Positions 30,951 through 41,243 of a DNA stretch of 64,000 bases are shown here, piece after piece. Origin of the DNA: Serpula lacrymans var. lacrymans S7.9. Its lineage: Eukaryota > Basidiomycota > Agaricomycetes > Boletales > Serpulaceae. The position numbers were made by a program, and so were the translations under genes. The notes under the pieces were generated by a model. That model saw only the letters and a list, made by a program, of their open reading frames with translations, was not told the origin of the DNA and searched no databases. The stretch lies in assembly GCF_000218685.1 (NCBI RefSeq), contig NW_006763304.1:677269-741268 (forward strand), written 5' to 3'. The stretch's first letter is position 1. Each line of letters starts with the position of its first letter.

Positions 30951-32009
30951 TTACCCGTATCCGCATCGTAGGCTGCGATGCTTGAAGCTTGAAGGTCTAG
31001 TAACAATGGAAGAGAACTCAACACTAATGCTGTCGAACTTTAGAGGGACATAGAACCTTGACATTAGCACGGTAGGTCCGGTGAACGTGGATGTACGAGT
31101 GTCATTTTCATGTTGAAGACCATATCCAATTCGTGCAGTAACGAGGAAAGGAATGGTTGACTGTATCATAATAGAAGAGCCAGGTCAGAATCAGAAAAAC
31201 AGAAAAGGGTGCATGCCGATGAAAGATGCCCACGGCGAATTATGTGGAAATAGGTTTCCACATTTCCTACGAAGTTCGTGCCAGAAGATGGTGTTGCATA
31301 GTGCAGAGAGGCGGAAAAATGTAGGACACAATGTTAGCTACATTAAGTCATGCATATCAGCCTACATACTGGGAAAATGCAAAGCTTCCAATTAAAATAC
31401 CAAATCATGTAAAGTCTCCATATTTGACCAACGCTTGAGTAGAGTTAGTCAAAGCGACTATGTGACCGTTGATAACAAGCTGTAATCCCGCTAGAAAAAA
31501 TCATTAGTCGGTTTATCATTCGTAAGGAAAGCATACGCACGTTGGTGTCGTGAAAGCGTCCATTGGCAAAACTGTAGAGGGCTCATGTCCAAGTAAATAT
31601 CCACTGGGAATAATCAGGATGGATGAATGTGTGCTTGAAGTAACTGCAAAAATGATACGATCATATGTGCAGTGGCTATGGGGTTTGACAATGTCGAACT
31701 TGAAGCGGCTATTGTAATCCTAGAGACCAAGATTTTACTCTTAATATAAGTCCGTCTGGAATATTATACTTACGAGCATCATGTTCCCTCGTCAAGACGT
31801 GCATGCATCCGCCATATAAGGCAGGGCTGTTTCATATCGGAAGAGTGCTGCTGGCAGTCGAAGCTACCTTGGACGGTGAATAGATCTAATTGATAGCTAG
31901 AGTTTTTGGTGTGTGAGTAGTGGAAAATTCGGTTGATTCGCGATTGTTCAGCAAGTCCAAAGTACATACCGTACAATATGGTTTCCAGCCACATGCATGT
32001 CATATTCAT
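30951..32009 (-). pseudogene. Broken relative of the tandem 7TM genes
   Basis: Minus-strand remnant that matches the three 7TM genes at 33.9-40.5 kb in order. At 32009 MNMTCMWLETILYG corresponds to exon 1 (QMTLTSxWLExxxYG) and ends at the same point before a GT. Near 31660 ATAHMIVSFLQLLQA matches exon 4, but an in-frame TGA follows soon after and then FPVDIYLDMSP, matching the TDVYLxSN block. Near 31410 IWRLYMIWYFNWK matches exon 6. Near 31160 STIPFLVTARIG matches exon 9 (TPLLIVVRVG), with a stop at 30951. Exons 7 and 8 of the intact genes, some 350 coding bases, are missing between the last two blocks. An in-frame stop plus an internal deletion make a working product unlikely. Confidence 0.7.
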
Positions 32010-32179
32010 CTGGCCGAAAGGAGGGATGTTTTCAGCAGTCGAAAACATCCTAGTAGTTGGAAAGGGATCGCATAGTGTTGGGGGCGGCTGGGGAGGAGAA
32101 AAGACATCGAGAAACGATGATGAGTCTAATCTCGATGTTGTGCTGCTTATAGCATAGCCCTCCAGGCATCGTGATCTCA

Positions 32180-33887: not shown

Positions 33888-35262
33888 ATGCCCTCGACGA
33901 CTCAAATGACCTTAACGTCCATATGGCTAGAATCTATTGCGTACGGTGAGCTACACAGGCACTTCCATTTTCCAACTCTGAAATCTGCCTTTCTAGGTAT
34001 AAAGTGAGTTAAAATCAATAACTCGTCCGTTTTTCTTTCGGTCACATATTCTGTATAGTTGCGCACTGTTCTCTCGAAGTACCTCTGTGCTATTACGACG
34101 ACAAGCCCGTGATGGTCTCAAGTGAGTCGCAAGTGGCTCTGGGCTATATCTATTTATTTATATCCTCCCCAGATATTCGAGTAGATTTCTCCTTGTCGCG
34201 AGCACGTTTCTGGTTATAACAGCCACTGTGCATATGATATTGTCTTTCCTGCAGTTACTGAAGGGTTTCACGGATTCAGCCATTTTATCCAAGCCCCTTG
34301 GCACCGATGTCTACCTTGTCTCTAATACATTGCTTGTTATCAATCTTGCCTTATACGTTGCCAATGTACGCACCACCCAAAATATAACTTGTTTCCCTTC
34401 ATTCATCTTTATTCGTCAGGCTATCACTCAGGAGCTGTTGCTGGTGAGTATTCAATATCATGCACACCATGTTGGATGAGTTTCACATGATTTGTGTTTC
34501 TCGTAGATATGGAGATTATATGTTATTCTCAATCGCAGTAGAATAGCGTGCGTCTTACCAGTAAGCATCTTCTTCGTTTCCATACTATATCTATCATTAA
34601 TTAAGGCTAGGTTGTTATCTTAATCGGAAACGCTAGTAAGTCCTGCTCTTCTCATACAGGCGTCATGGGTAATTTCTAATGATTCATTTATCCCAGTATC
34701 TGGGTACATGGGTATCTATCATTTCTCCCAGAGTCCAGGGTCAATGCACCCCCTCAAGGCGTTTATATTATCATACTGGATAACTGGCTTCTTTCTCAAT
34801 GCCATGCTGACATGCACCATTGCACGTTACATCTGGCGAGTAAGTAGAGATGCTTACGGCATGAATCGCTCAGACTACAGAAGTGCCGTCCGATTTGTAG
34901 TCGAGTCAGGTGCCTTGGTGACGAGCTGTGCACTCGTTATGACGTGCTTGTACATTGCAGGAAGTGTGGCAGGCCCAATATCTGAAAATGTAGCCATACA
35001 ATTGAATGTGAGTACACCTTACGATACACTACGTCTCTTTATTCATATTGTGCTCTAATCGTATGGCTGAAATTCCTGTTGGTTCTAGACTGCGAACCCT
35101 TTGCTTATCGTTGCTCGAGTGGGGACCCACGTCAACGATTCAGCATCGCATAGCACTTTCATTCTTACTCGCCCTATCGACTTTCGTGTTGATGCCGCTC
35201 GACCTCGTTCAGTGGATTCTCTCGCAGATCCAGCAGACGCATCCAAATATATCCAGCCATAA
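33888..35262 (+). CDS. Seven-TM-like membrane protein, tandem paralogue 1
   Basis: Nine exons: 33888-33945, 33997-34003, 34059-34121, 34173-34365, 34420-34443, 34507-34560, 34611-34635, 34697-35007 and 35089-35262; 302 residues. Exon 2 is a 7-nt microexon (GTATAAA). The product is mostly hydrophobic, with about seven membrane segments. Conserved stretches: QMTLTSIWLESIAYG, TATVHMILSFLQLL, GTDVYLVSNTLLV, IWRLYVILN, VVESGALVTSC and TANPLLIVARVG. This pattern, with IWRL(Y/W)V, ESGAL and LIIVRVG, is that of a large basidiomycete-specific multi-TM family with a receptor-like layout but no proven ligand. Exon 4 is about three-quarters identical to that of paralogue 2 by hand count. The extreme C-terminus is polar and differs in each copy. 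Confidence 0.85.
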
Positions 35263-36853
35263 TGATTTTCACCGCAGTGTGATTTGTATCGCCGAATGCA
35301 GAGTGTTGCTTCTGTTATTAAATCTCACTATTTAATTGACCGGATGGGTTTACGTACAGAACTTGCCCATGACGAGACGTCTCAATGTTGTCAGATCGAC
35401 TCCAGGACAGTCAGTATCTATACAAACATACCTTCAATGTAGGCTGTGCATAGCAAGGCACTAACAGCGCATGAATATGGCCAATGTACAATGCTCCATT
35501 AACAACTGCGTCAATAGAATGCTGTTGTAATTTTGTTGTTTAGCGACTGACGGTCAAAGCTCGAGCGGCCGTATTCCTTTTTCTTCTTCTGTGTCAATAT
35601 CACGAAAGGTGTAGCCCAAACTCACTCATTACAATTATAATGCCAATATAACCTGTGAGTATTCATGTCATTCGGTATTCTGTCCAACATAAGACCTTAA
35701 TTACTTTGCGTAATCCATAGCAGTCCTCCTCTTTGTATTTTTCCAATAAAACGAAAACCAAGACTCTTACACTTAAAACACGAGAGCCAACAGTCAGTCT
35801 CGCGAGTTTTAGTCAGATTATAATGGGATGTTCTGAAGATGAAATGCACCATCATGAATCGGTCTGTCAGAAAATAAGGATCTGATCGGGCACTTTGGAG
35901 GTGTCCTGCTGTCATGACAAGGCTTAAAAAAGAACAGTAATCGCTGCTGAGCGCTGAGTAGGACAGAGGCACTGCAAGTGCGTGTATGCAACAATGGCCT
36001 CAAGAGTACTACTACTACGTAGTACTGTCCAGTTGTGAGTCCGCATCGATCGGCTTGCCCCACTCCTTATTCTGCCTCCAAATCGACAAGCAATGACTTT
36101 GACCACATTAAAATAAATCAAGGCGAGAACACAAGTCAAGGCACACGTACTCAAGTGCCTATACTATCTTGACTTGTAACATTTCATTATTTTGTGTGTA
36201 CAGACTGAGGTCTAATATCTTCTTACTCTCCTGTTTATTTCTAGATCTACCACCCTTGTAGTGCAATCTTTCCCATTCAAGTACGGCACATACACGCTGT
36301 ATAGCAGAACTTCAGGTTCTTTCCGATGTACACGCATCTAAGCCTCAAGTTACGAAAATGACCAATATGGCGCATTGTTATTGGTCCTTGTGTATAATCA
36401 TCATCGGCGCACATATTGATGGTTTTGCTGCCATCAGCGCTGAGACCCTCGTTATTGGTGCAACAGGAGAAAACCCTGTGGCGGGTAGATGTGCCGATGA
36501 TGGTCTAGTACATTTTTCATATACAAGGTCAGCTTACCAGACCACCTAGTTGAGTACTATCAATTTGCATTAGTGAGCTAGATTCCCTCGGATGGACATT
36601 TGAATTTTCCCACTAATACTGCATTATCCAAGAAATTATAGATGGCATGAACCTGTGTCTGCTGTGCTGTGATTCTATCTTTGTTCTTTGTTGGACATCC
36701 TCATCATCAAAGTTGGGAGATCGCTGTGGATGCGGAATGATACTGATGTTACAGAAAGCACGAACCCACTTATAAAGTGCACTTGGCATGTTCTGTCCCA
36801 ACGGCCTCCTTTTTTCTACCATCTCTCAGTTTCGCATACATACTGCCAGAAGT
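35263..36853. other. Spacer between 7TM paralogues 1 and 2
   Basis: 1.6 kb without a supported gene. A minus-strand frame at 36154-35924 begins MSTCALTCVLALIYFNVVK and is hydrophobic at its start, but I could not connect it to other exons. Short plus-strand frames have no recognisable motifs. The end carries the promoter of paralogue 2. Confidence 0.4.
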
Positions 36854-38320
36854 ATGTCTTCAGTGACTCAAATGACGTTGACATCTATGTGGTTGGAGGT
36901 CCTCGCATATGGTAAACTATTCATTTTGACACAATGATTCTGTGATCTAAAGACCTTCCAGGTGTGAAGTACAGAAATCCAATACTAGTTTCTGTTTCAT
37001 TCTCTGACCGCCGGGTCTAGCTCTGTGCTTTTCTCTATATGTGTCTTTGTTTTATTAGGGCGACAAGCAGAAGAAAGATTGAAGTGAGTCGATTTTTATC
37101 AGCGTTTCATTACTCGACTTCTCACTATATCAACCGTACCAACCTGTTGTCTTGCAGATACTCAAGTAGACTCCTTCTTTTTGCAAGCACATTCCTATTC
37201 ACGACAGCCACCGTACATATGACACTATCTTTCCTGCAATTACTGAAGGCATTCACGGATTCCGCGATCATTTCCAAGCCTCGTGGCACAGATGTCTACC
37301 TTGCTTCTAATTCGTTGCTCGTCACTAATGATATATTGTATGTCATTAACGTATGTGTGTTCTATGGCGTCAACTGTTTAATATCATCTGAAATTGTTAG
37401 ACAGGTTTTTGCGCAAGATCTCCTTTTGGTGAGTATCAAGCACATATGCCATCCGTATCTAATGGCTCATAAGCCGTGCTTAATTTTGCATTGTCTTTTA
37501 AAGATATGGAAACTGCATGTTGTCTTGAATCACAGATGGAGAGTTTGCATCCTACCGGTAAGGATTATTTGTTCTTCTCTTTCCATTCCAACGCATTTTA
37601 TCCATGGGTACCAGTTGTTTCTTTTGATTGCCAATGTTGGTGAGTCTTGTAATTCCTCAAGTGTATTATCTGCTGTTCGAGTATTTTTTCTTCGTTCGTC
37701 CCAGTGTGCGCATCTGTGGGCATATACCATCTCTCACGTGCTCCAGCAGCCGGACTTGATGACTCCTATCTATCGCGTCTTGTCAAAATATTCACATTAT
37801 CGGGCTGGGCACTCGGCTTCTCCCTAAATGCTGGTTTGACCTGTAGTATCGCCTATTACCTATGGCGAGTAGGTAAAGGAAAAAATTATGTTGGCCGTTC
37901 AGACTACAAGAGTGCTATCCGGCTCGTGGTCGAATCCGGTGCACTAATGACGAGTTGTACGTTCATTATGCTGTGCTTATACATAGCGGGCAGTGTGGCA
38001 GGCCCTATTGCAATCAATGTAGCCGTGCAAGTAAATGTGAGTGTCGGAAACACACACAGTCTCACCTTGAGCTGATTTGACTTCAGACCGCTACGCCTTT
38101 GCTTATTGTCGTGCGTGTCGGGATGGTTCATTATAGAAATTCTGACATGCCTACCGCCTCAGACCATACCCAGTCTACAGTGGCAATCGACGTCCATATC
38201 GATGTCATGCAGCCGACGGATCCTCTCACTGCATATCCAGTAGATTGTCCGGCACAAAAAAGCCAATGTGGCAGGTTCATGACCATAATTTCCGCAGCGA
38301 GCGCTTGCGGGGGTCGCTAG
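36854..38320 (+). CDS. Seven-TM-like membrane protein, tandem paralogue 2
   Basis: Nine exons: 36854-36911, 36962-36968, 37021-37083, 37158-37350, 37405-37428, 37504-37557, 37615-37639, 37705-38036 and 38087-38320; 329 residues. Exons 1 to 7 have exactly the lengths found in paralogue 1, including the 7-nt exon 2 (GTGTGAA). Key blocks are QMTLTSMWLEVLAYG, TATVHMTLSFLQLLKAFTDS, GTDVYLASNSLLV, IWKLHVVLN, VVESGALMTSC and TATPLLIVVRVG. About seven hydrophobic segments; the large loop before the last two helices contains RVGKGKNYVGRSDYKSAIR, likely cytosolic. The C-terminal tail is about 70 residues, longer than in the other copies. Together the copies point to recent tandem duplication under selection for an open frame. 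Confidence 0.87.
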
Positions 38321-39190
38321 CTAAATGCAAGACCTATTCTCATTCTTTTGTCTCATACGCAGTTTGTACACATACCAGCTCTACTTCAGATACCGTCCTT
38401 TTTGGTGTTGTCGCAACTCAAGATTGATGTCTTGTATTTAGGCTGCATAGTTATTTGACCCTCACTTGACTCAAAAGGCATTAATAGACACCAACGGCAG
38501 GAATAATATCATAGATCTGGGTCAATCTCTGCTGTCACCGTGGCGTCAGTGATGCCGAACAAGATTAGAAAATCACGTATTTCCTGTGCTTTTGCCCATA
38601 ACTATGTTCAGTGGCCCTGAAGCATACTTTATCTTAGCTTTTCAAATTGTAGAGTTGTGTTCCTGGTACCGTCAGGTCTCCGCAGTAAGTGCCAGTCTTC
38701 GGTTATCCGAACCGTCCTATATGCTGTAGCATCGTTATCATCTAACCACATATGTCGGATACCTCCGAATGTTCTGATGCTCAGCTCCCCAATTACAGCA
38801 TAGATTAGGTGCAATATCATACAGCATCTTCCGAGTCGGCATCAGTTCCACCAGGCAAATGCGATATTGGTAGAGATTTCTTCCTTCATATTGGTTTCAA
38901 AGGCCTATAAATCAGTTTACAGGGCTTGTAGAAATACATAACGGTGCCATCACTGATTCAGTTTCTCAAAAGAAATTATATCTCCCTACACTTTTCTACC
39001 CCATGCTTTGTGACACCTGCTCAGCTGTCAGAGGAACATCCCGGTAAAATGGTATGTCAAACGTCGTCCAGTAAAAAAATTGTGTTCACTTGCAGTACAG
39101 CCCATGGCGTATAAAGCAGAGACGTTATCTGATTTCCTCAATCTATGTCAAAGTTTTCTGGCTGCATAACACCGATACTTGACCGTCGCC
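38321..39190. other. Spacer between 7TM paralogues 2 and 3
   Basis: 870 bases. Nothing coding that I can support; a minus-strand frame at 38629-38820 has no recognisable motif. The final 150 bases are the likely promoter and leader of paralogue 3. Confidence 0.4.
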
Positions 39191-40530
39191 ATGGCTATAC
39201 CTCCTATAGCTCAGATGACCTTGACCTCTACATGGATCGAGTCTCTGTTATATGGTAAGTCCAATCTCTTACAGAGTATTCAGTTTGCGAATTAAACGTA
39301 TGATTTGTTACTCAGGCGCTAAGTAATAACACTTGTACTGGTTCGTTTACGATCTTTTGCCTAACTATTGCAATCTAGCTGTGTGCTTTTCGCCTGTTGT
39401 ATCTTCATATTATTGAAACGGCGTAGGAGTCAATCTCTCAGGCAAGTGGTGCTCGAAGCTCTCAAATCATAGGGACTAGTAACATGTTTGAGTCTCCAGA
39501 TTCTCGAACAGCATACTTATCTTAACAAGCGTCACTCTATTTATCACGGCCACCGTACATGCGCTCTTGTCTTTCCTACAGCTATTGCACGCATTCATAG
39601 ATCCAGCCATTGCGTCCAAGCCTCATGGTGCAGACACCTATCTTATGTCTAATCCTTTGTTTGTCGCCAATTTCATCCTTTATGTTGCAAACGTGAGGTG
39701 GTTTTTCTCATACGTATCTAGATATCAGTCTTACTTTTATTTAACTCCTAGGCTATGGTGCAGCACTTATTAATGGTGAGTCGTATATAAGAAATCCACC
39801 TCACTCACTCACGTCCCTGTAGATATGGAGGTTGTACGTTATATTTGATTATCGTTGGAAGATATGCGTATTGCCAGTGAGATTGTTTTTGGTTGTCATT
39901 TGATTCTCTCTCACAGACCAATCTCAGCTAATTGCCTTGATTGCCAATGATTGTAAGCTTGTTCATCACAAAAAAATCCAGCTATTATCCTGATCTTACT
40001 CAGCCTGTGCATATACGGCTGCATTCTACCTTTCACAACCCACGGCACAACAGGATTCAATCATACCACCACACGGATTCAAAGTGTTCATGATATTTGG
40101 CTGGTTATTGGGTTTTATGATCAATTTGGGTCTGACGGGCGGCATTGCACACAGACTCTTTCGAACAGGCAAAAGGTCATTGGCTGTAGTTGGACCGGAC
40201 TACATTGGTATTGCTTTGATTGTGATAGAGTCGGGAGCTTTGATGACGGGCTGCACGCTCGTTATGATGAGTTTGTACTTTTCTGGTAATGTGGCAGGCG
40301 TAATAGCGATTGGCGTAGCTGCTCAAGTGAACGTGAGTACTTCTACAAAATGGTGGCGTTCACTGGACTAAATAGGTTGAGCATGATAGACATCAACTCC
40401 CTTACTCATCGTTGTGCGTGTTAGCCTTGGAACGCTCTGGAATCATGATGTGTTACCTGCTGCAAGCTGCCCCCAATCCGTCAATCTGAAGAGGTTTCAA
40501 CGTCGGTACCCACTAAATATTGACGTCTAA
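39191..40530 (+). CDS. Seven-TM-like membrane protein, tandem paralogue 3
   Basis: Nine exons: 39191-39254, 39316-39322, 39379-39441, 39500-39692, 39752-39775, 39823-39876, 39928-39952, 40004-40332 and 40390-40530; 299 residues. Exons 2-7 have the same lengths as in paralogues 1 and 2 (7, 63, 193, 24, 54 and 25 nt); exon 1 is two codons longer. The 7-nt exon is GCGCTAA. The intron after exon 3 begins GCAAGT, so it appears to be a GC-AG intron; the same junction in the other copies uses GT. Conserved blocks: QMTLTSTWIESLLYG, TATVHALLSFLQLL, GADTYLMSNPLFV, IWRLYVIFDYRWKI, VIESGALMTGC and STPLLIVVRV. It is the most diverged of the three. Same family and caveats as its neighbours. Confidence 0.85.
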
Positions 40531-40772: not shown

Positions 40773-41243
40773 CTAAACATAGTTCCAGTTAACCAAAAGG
40801 CGTCCAGACAATGGAGCAAGTGCTTCGAAAGCATCAGGAGTCAAATCGATATCATACCCCCCACACCCAGCACACTCGTCTATTACTGTCACATTGACTG
40901 ATTTGCCTTCATCTGTATTCAAAAAATTGTAACCATTCAGCCAGTCAGGTTGGAGAGGTCCAACGGAGGAAAGATGTCCATACAGGTAACTGTAATGAGT
41001 TTCCCGCACTCTTCTCCGCTGAATTGACTGGGAGAGAGAGCAACGAGAAAATCGTAATTAGTTGGCTGTGCAGTCCCGCAAGAGCCACCGGGCTCATAAA
41101 AGGTAGCTAGGGAAACAAATAACTTGTCAACCCAGAAATGCCGAACCAGTAGTAATTGGCATACCTTCACCAGTATAAGCTAGACCGGTGCTCATCATAG
41201 ACAATACAAGTATCAGACATTTAAACGAAGATCCCTGAGTCAT
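40773..41243 (-). CDS. Secreted double-psi beta-barrel (expansin/RlpA-like) protein 1
   Basis: Three minus-strand exons: 41243-41165, 41106-40984 and 40912-40773; 113 residues. A signal peptide is clear (MTQGSSFKCLILVLSMMSTG). The mature part is a single double-psi beta-barrel: ATFYEPGGSCGTAQPTN, VALSPSQF, ECGKLITVT, then VTVIDECAGCGGYDIDLTPD with the family's Asp and paired Cys, and the end GRLLVNWNYV. This fold is shared by barwin, expansin domain 1, RlpA and GH45. Fungal single-domain versions are small secreted proteins, some wall-loosening, some effectors. No carbohydrate-binding module follows. A near-identical exon plan is seen in the second copy at 42569-43036, so the two are tandem duplicates. 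Confidence 0.88.

Follow-up and report, generated by a model that had tools for sequence, protein, structure and literature searches.

Three genes arranged head to tail in a 64,000-nt window of the 42.6-Mb Serpula lacrymans assembly (C15:677269-741268; positions without a contig refer to this window) belong to a large, unnamed superfamily of orphan seven-transmembrane (7TM) proteins of Agaricomycetes. Most likely, at somewhat better than even confidence and judged from predicted structures, these proteins are G-protein-coupled receptors (GPCRs) of class D, that is, Ste2-like, build. The genes, here named g1 (33888 to 35262), g2 (36854 to 38320), and g3 (39191 to 40530; all on the plus strand), share a 7-nt microexon that codes for Gly-x-Asn within helix 1 and recurs in every intact-looking paralogue modelled in the genome. 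It is a new, well-kept instance of a microexon, found in a receptor-like family, and as a genetic element it belongs to a kind already known. A literature search outside subscription papers and preprints found no published description of this family.

Structure of the three genes

Each hand-built model has nine exons. Those of g1 (302 amino acids) lie at 33888-33945, 33997-34003, 34059-34121, 34173-34365, 34420-34443, 34507-34560, 34611-34635, 34697-35007, and 35089-35262; those of g2 (329 amino acids) at 36854-36911, 36962-36968, 37021-37083, 37158-37350, 37405-37428, 37504-37557, 37615-37639, 37705-38036, and 38087-38320; and those of g3 (299 amino acids) at 39191-39254, 39316-39322, 39379-39441, 39500-39692, 39752-39775, 39823-39876, 39928-39952, 40004-40332, and 40390-40530. 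The g1 protein is contained in the database protein P0003 (SERLA73DRAFT_77871), and P0001 (SERLA73DRAFT_77872) agrees with g2 up to helix 6. All introns are GT-AG except intron 3 of g3 (39442-39499), which is GC-AG with a GCAAGT donor. Intron 3 is likewise present in the ten other paralogue models, where its alignment column shifts.

The original prediction had described identical internal exon lengths together with differing introns and C-terminal tails, and the gene models agree with it on both points. Exons 2 to 7 measure 7, 63, 193, 24, 54, and 25 nt in all three genes; in g1, g2, and g3, respectively, exon 8 measures 311, 332, and 329 nt and exon 9, stop codon included, 174, 234, and 141 nt, and intron lengths vary. 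Exon 1 has 58, 58, and 64 nt. Exon 4 is ambiguous in that an alternative in-frame start lies 9 nt downstream in g1 and g2 and 12 nt downstream in g3; the 193-nt form is the one found in P0003 and P0001, the S7.3 models of g1 and g2. The microexon reads GTATAAA in g1 (33997-34003), GTGTGAA in g2 (36962-36968), and GCGCTAA in g3 (39316-39322). As had been noted, it completes a Gly codon and carries one full codon, for Ile, Val, and Ala, respectively; the earlier description omitted that the terminal AA supplies the first two bases of an Asn codon.

Predicted fold and relation to known receptors

Database searches returned 67 family proteins, of which 47 were chosen as rows of alignment A2; a further alignment (A4) holds 44 chosen rows out of 120 proteins. 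The AlphaFold2 (AF2) model of P0003, which contains g1, predicts seven transmembrane helices, mostly with a predicted local distance difference test (pLDDT) score of >90, and the positive-inside charge pattern over 41 to 47 alignment rows predicts an outer N terminus and an inner C terminus. The predicted models have a GPCR-type helix arrangement, and of 1000 chains aligned by VIA-align, the Ste2 structure 7AD3 showed the closest arrangement in each of two models; Ste2 was not among the best 50 Foldseek matches for the g1-containing model. The seven confident helices, the charge pattern, and the best structural match to Ste2 bear out the earlier designation of these proteins as receptor-like.

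Sequence profiles gave no class assignment. No Pfam family was matched by g1-g3; the 47 members matched 11 families, all at chance level and with no GPCR profile among them, and the Pfam and NCBIfam scans as a whole yielded chance-level matches only. A sequence search of the PDB returned nothing for A2 and one chance-level match for A4. In a viral structure library, a single match fell below an E value of 1e-3, namely, a pithovirus protein whose function is unknown (TM 0.35/0.30); most of the others were viral GPCRs. We regard it as unlikely, though deserving serious consideration, that the proteins are an orphan transporter, channel, lipid-binding, or scaffolding family whose bundle merely resembles that of a GPCR. 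Microbial-rhodopsin-like light receptors or pumps can be considered close to negligible: rhodopsins are among the top structural matches of the g1-containing model, but a retinal Schiff base requires a lysine in helix 7, and none is present there in any of 46 rows.

The resemblance to Ste2 extends to seven helices in a like arrangement and to missing DRY and NPxxY motifs, which were not seen by eye in the family alignments and are absent from Ste2 (PMC8942848). Helix 7 of the family has the consensus TPLLIVV(R/Q)VG with a conserved Pro-Leu (Pro in 39 and Leu in 38 of 47 rows), and its Pro is possibly equivalent to Pro290 of Ste2, a correspondence inferred from equal end offsets only. There are also differences from Ste2: the family has no match to PF02116, and the LPLSSMWA motif is absent, with only Pro-Leu agreeing. 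Ste2 is reported as the only solved fungal GPCR (PMC13308352), so that the structural match may mean just "fungal GPCR."

Other fungal 7TM families were compared as well. DUF6534 proteins of Agaricomycotina have been proposed as new GPCRs (PMC12842992), and SNB1 is a DUF6533 protein with a predicted outer N terminus (PMC10949477). Like the family described here, these are Agaricomycete-rich, expanded 7TM proteins without a known ligand, with many loci in the same genome; however, none of the 47 family members matches PF20152 or PF20151 at an E value of ≤1, and no DUF match falls on the family loci. STE3 proteins (PF02076) are likewise fungal 7TM receptors, but of 118 exon-level STE3 matches counted in the genome, not one lies at a family locus. 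A survey of fungal 7TM proteins outside known classes counted 141,666 in 1,357 species, forming 1969 clusters; DUF6534 in Agaricomycotina makes up the largest of these, and some others lack Pfam domains (PMC12842992). The g1-g3 family may be among the latter.

If the GPCR interpretation holds, the proteins would expose the N terminus outside, followed by seven helices with positively charged inner loops and tail, and would presumably sense a surface chemical and signal to a heterotrimeric G protein. G signalling is present in S. lacrymans, since the genome holds 33 exon-level G-alpha matches besides the STE3 matches. As a more tentative extension, to which we give clearly less than even probability, the superfamily would be an unrecognised class of Ste2-arranged GPCRs that has expanded in Agaricomycetes and provides a broad chemoreceptor repertoire there; in some copies, choice between the microexon and a frame-matched donor at +4 (see below) could in addition switch a single residue of helix 1 by splicing. 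Ste2-type genes are reported from Ascomycota only, and Agaricomycetes are reported to lack Ste2 receptors (PMC12842992, PMC13308352); class I is likewise described as restricted to Ascomycota (PMC13308352). The superfamily, if truly Ste2-built, would offer a concrete repertoire for yeast assays.

Conservation of the microexon among paralogues

Searches of the genome with g2 and P0006 as queries, which score only the best candidates, led to ten regions, and paralogues were modelled with a purpose-written splice-aware profile aligner; at the DNA level, the microexon was checked in this one genome. Eight further complete or nearly complete paralogues were found on contigs C10 (one), C5 (four), C17 (two), and C2 (one), giving at least 11 with the array. 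For the C5:1727 kb copy, the last exon was not found in the model.

The 7-nt exon is present in all 11 intact-looking paralogues, in 11 different sequences that each end in AA and code for Gly-(Ile/Val/Ala)-Asn. Its strict retention, first noticed within the array, thus holds beyond it, with introns 1 and 2 at the same alignment columns and in phases 1 and 2 throughout (11/11). Position is also kept for introns 5, 6, and 7 (11/11), for intron 8 wherever it was found (10/10), and for intron 4 in 10 of the 11. Intron 3 falls in a loop, and its position differs between paralogues. When placed on the predicted model, exons 2, 5, and 7 lie inside helices and exon 6 spans the short loop between helices 3 and 4. 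These four are constant in length across paralogues (7, 24, 54, and 25 nt, apart from one 51 and one 20), whereas exons 1, 3, 4, and 8 extend into loops and differ in length. The common exon lengths are therefore inherited structure, kept through descent of the intron positions and through the placement of these exons inside or between helices.

Because the Gly-x-Asn columns are part of the modelling profile, this profile favors the 7-nt exon. After masking of the columns, the exon was still picked in all three window genes; among the eight other paralogues, it was kept in four and replaced by other routes in four. Exactly one AG-N7-GT placement exists between exon 1 and exon 3 in each of the 11 paralogues (introns of ≥42 nt). 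In first-order Markov resamples of that stretch, the chance of at least one such placement was 7 to 20% per locus, with a product of 7e-11 to be read with the reservation that paralogues are not independent. Skipping the microexon leads to a premature stop after 18 to 66 modelled residues in 11 of 11 paralogues, and the S7.3 database proteins for g1 (P0003) and g2 (P0001) contain the microexon residues.

A different splice route deserves mention here, namely, that the 7-nt exon is not the normal form and that exon 1 is instead spliced directly to exon 3 from a GTNNGT donor lying 4 nt downstream. This would preserve the frame, since 4 and 7 leave the same remainder. A GT at +4 after the first donor is present in 8 of 11 paralogues, the resulting product stays open through exon 4 in all eight, and 8 of the 51 database models that cover the site lack one residue there, as this route predicts. 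However, no GT at +4 exists in g1, g2, or the C5:1702 kb copy, for which the microexon is thus the simplest in-frame solution. Use of the +4 donor would also remove the conserved Asn in six of the eight, retaining it only in g3 and the C10 copy; Gly-x-Asn is read in 36 of the 51 models and in both of two intron-poor contigs (P0035 and P0037); and the GT at +4 is itself explained by the donor consensus, GTNNGT. We consider this route improbable as the normal form.

Database models at the microexon site

With P0067, a distant Mycena protein reading YGVLL, excluded, a count by eye shows that 51 of the 66 remaining database proteins cover the microexon site and 15 do not. Two of the 36 models with Gly-x-Asn (P0004 and P0040) deviate directly beside it. 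The other 15 comprise eight that are one residue short, which would correspond to the product expected from the +4 donor, two with an insert before the site, and five that differ otherwise (P0002, P0009, P0041, P0042, and P0044). The relatives P0035 and P0037, both reading YGVNC, come from contigs of 1180 and 939 nt that look like transcripts, because they are too short for a gene of 317 or 297 amino acids with eight 50-nt introns.

The closest database proteins come from S. lacrymans var. lacrymans: P0003 carries the whole of g1 behind an N-terminal extension, and P0001 (S7.3) represents g2 with a gap across helices 6 to 7 and a different tail. In S7.9, the g2 model (P0002) is missing exon 2 together with the beginning of exon 3 and a portion of exon 8. 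No S. lacrymans database protein was returned for g3, which was part of the alignment query and never a single query. The microexon hence serves as a practical warning: with 15 of 51 models off at one site and no protein returned for g3, automatic gene counts may err.

Origin of the microexon

Five more distant relatives in the genome were modelled (L072 and L081-L084), with L081 and L083 lacking a trustworthy N-terminal model. All five models share the phase-0 intron before an Arg at the end of helix 3, and four of five share the last intron. In three of the five (L072, L082, and L084), a phase-1 intron interrupts the same Gly codon of a Tyr-Gly pair, but there is no second intron. The microexon was thus probably created by gain of a second intron, as the simplest history when three of five relatives have the first intron only: a phase-2 intron would have entered 7 nt downstream of an older phase-1 intron that splits the Gly codon of this conserved pair. 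Loss of the second intron in L072, L082, and L084 is a possible alternative history. If gain is correct, the two steps cleanly illustrate one way for a microexon to come about.

In Serpula, the 7-nt exon would be spliced as a constitutive exon within helix 1, and its short flanking introns (50 to 73 nt) should allow intron-definition splicing. Its strict length needs no special function of the 7 nt as such: the length stays the same because the helix tolerates no insertions and the intron positions are inherited. Very short coding exons are known from plants, where they are conserved and often misannotated (PMC8831610), and from P450 genes of the basidiomycete Phanerochaete (PMC1184071); the plant cases also share fixed phase, cross-species retention, and being missed by gene finders. 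Those belong to other gene families, whereas here the 7 nt lie in a receptor-like helix and have a traceable two-step intron origin. Unlike the 20-nt microexon of Trichoderma Xlr2, a regulated switch (PMC11121469), the present one gave no sign of regulation.

History of the array and distribution of the family

A tree of 30 rows (18 database proteins, the 11 paralogues, and L072) places g1 and g2 as sisters (99/96) and g3 as sister to the C10 gene on another contig (100/99). These four and the two C17 genes form one Serpula-only group of six (96/94), which includes neither Rhodofomes nor any Boletales sampled from other genera. The C5:1973 kb copy groups with Suillus and Hygrophoropsis (100/99). 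By the NG86 method, nonsynonymous (dN) and synonymous (dS) distances are 0.26 and 2.43 for g1-g2, 0.24 and 0.84 for g3-C10, and 0.37 and 0.76 for the C17 pair. Among g1-g3, dS is saturated (2.0 to 2.4), which makes dN/dS unusable as a test for the three and marks them, on sequence divergence, as old duplicates. The earlier notion of an expanding array does not fit this saturation or the position of g3's sister on another contig. That the array is lineage accessory sequence stood in part: the group of six is Serpula-only in the sampled tree, but the family spans Boletales and reaches into Polyporales.

The new sensing system suggested earlier is a possibility. A role in self/non-self recognition had also been proposed, and such receptors, or mating-type receptors, diversifying in an expanding array would be in keeping with the tandem layout, the varied tails, and STE3-type matches on the same contig at C15:774143-775192 and 803982-805130, 56 to 87 kb from the array. 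Against it stand the age of the duplicates, a dN well below dS where readable (as for g3 and the C10 gene), the grouping of g3 with that gene, and the fact that 0 of 118 STE3 matches fall on the array or any other family locus. We therefore judge this role very improbable. STE3 matches are also clustered elsewhere, at C3:2.698-2.717 Mb.

The family is likely to be clustered outside Serpula as well, with a larger cluster in Boletus coccyginus. Of 64 family proteins returned by one search, 16 are from that species (P0008, P0014, P0015, and 13 others) and list an identical longest contig, of 1,191,937 bases.

Decayed copies and neighboring sequence

A decayed fourth family copy precedes the array on the minus strand (30999 to 32048). 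It has in-frame stops, lacks most of exon 8, and retains a 7-nt remnant after AG, without a GT donor; its first exon is closer to the C5:2733 kb and C2:388 kb (P0006) paralogues than to g1-g3. Further decayed-looking copies occur at C10:374 kb, C2:441 kb, and C2:452 kb (aligner scores of 29 to 45). The two degenerate copies on C2, L070 (439-442.5 kb) and L071 (450-453.8 kb), lie about 11 kb apart in opposite orientation, and their models end in an identical tail, as would be expected within an inverted duplication. Among the neighboring genes, sampled as five open reading frames (ORFs), an ORF on the minus strand adjoining the array (40773-41057) shows a weak DPBB_1 match (E value of 5.8e-6; 26.9 bits, below the 28.8 cutoff) and perhaps encodes a secreted barwin/expansin-like protein.

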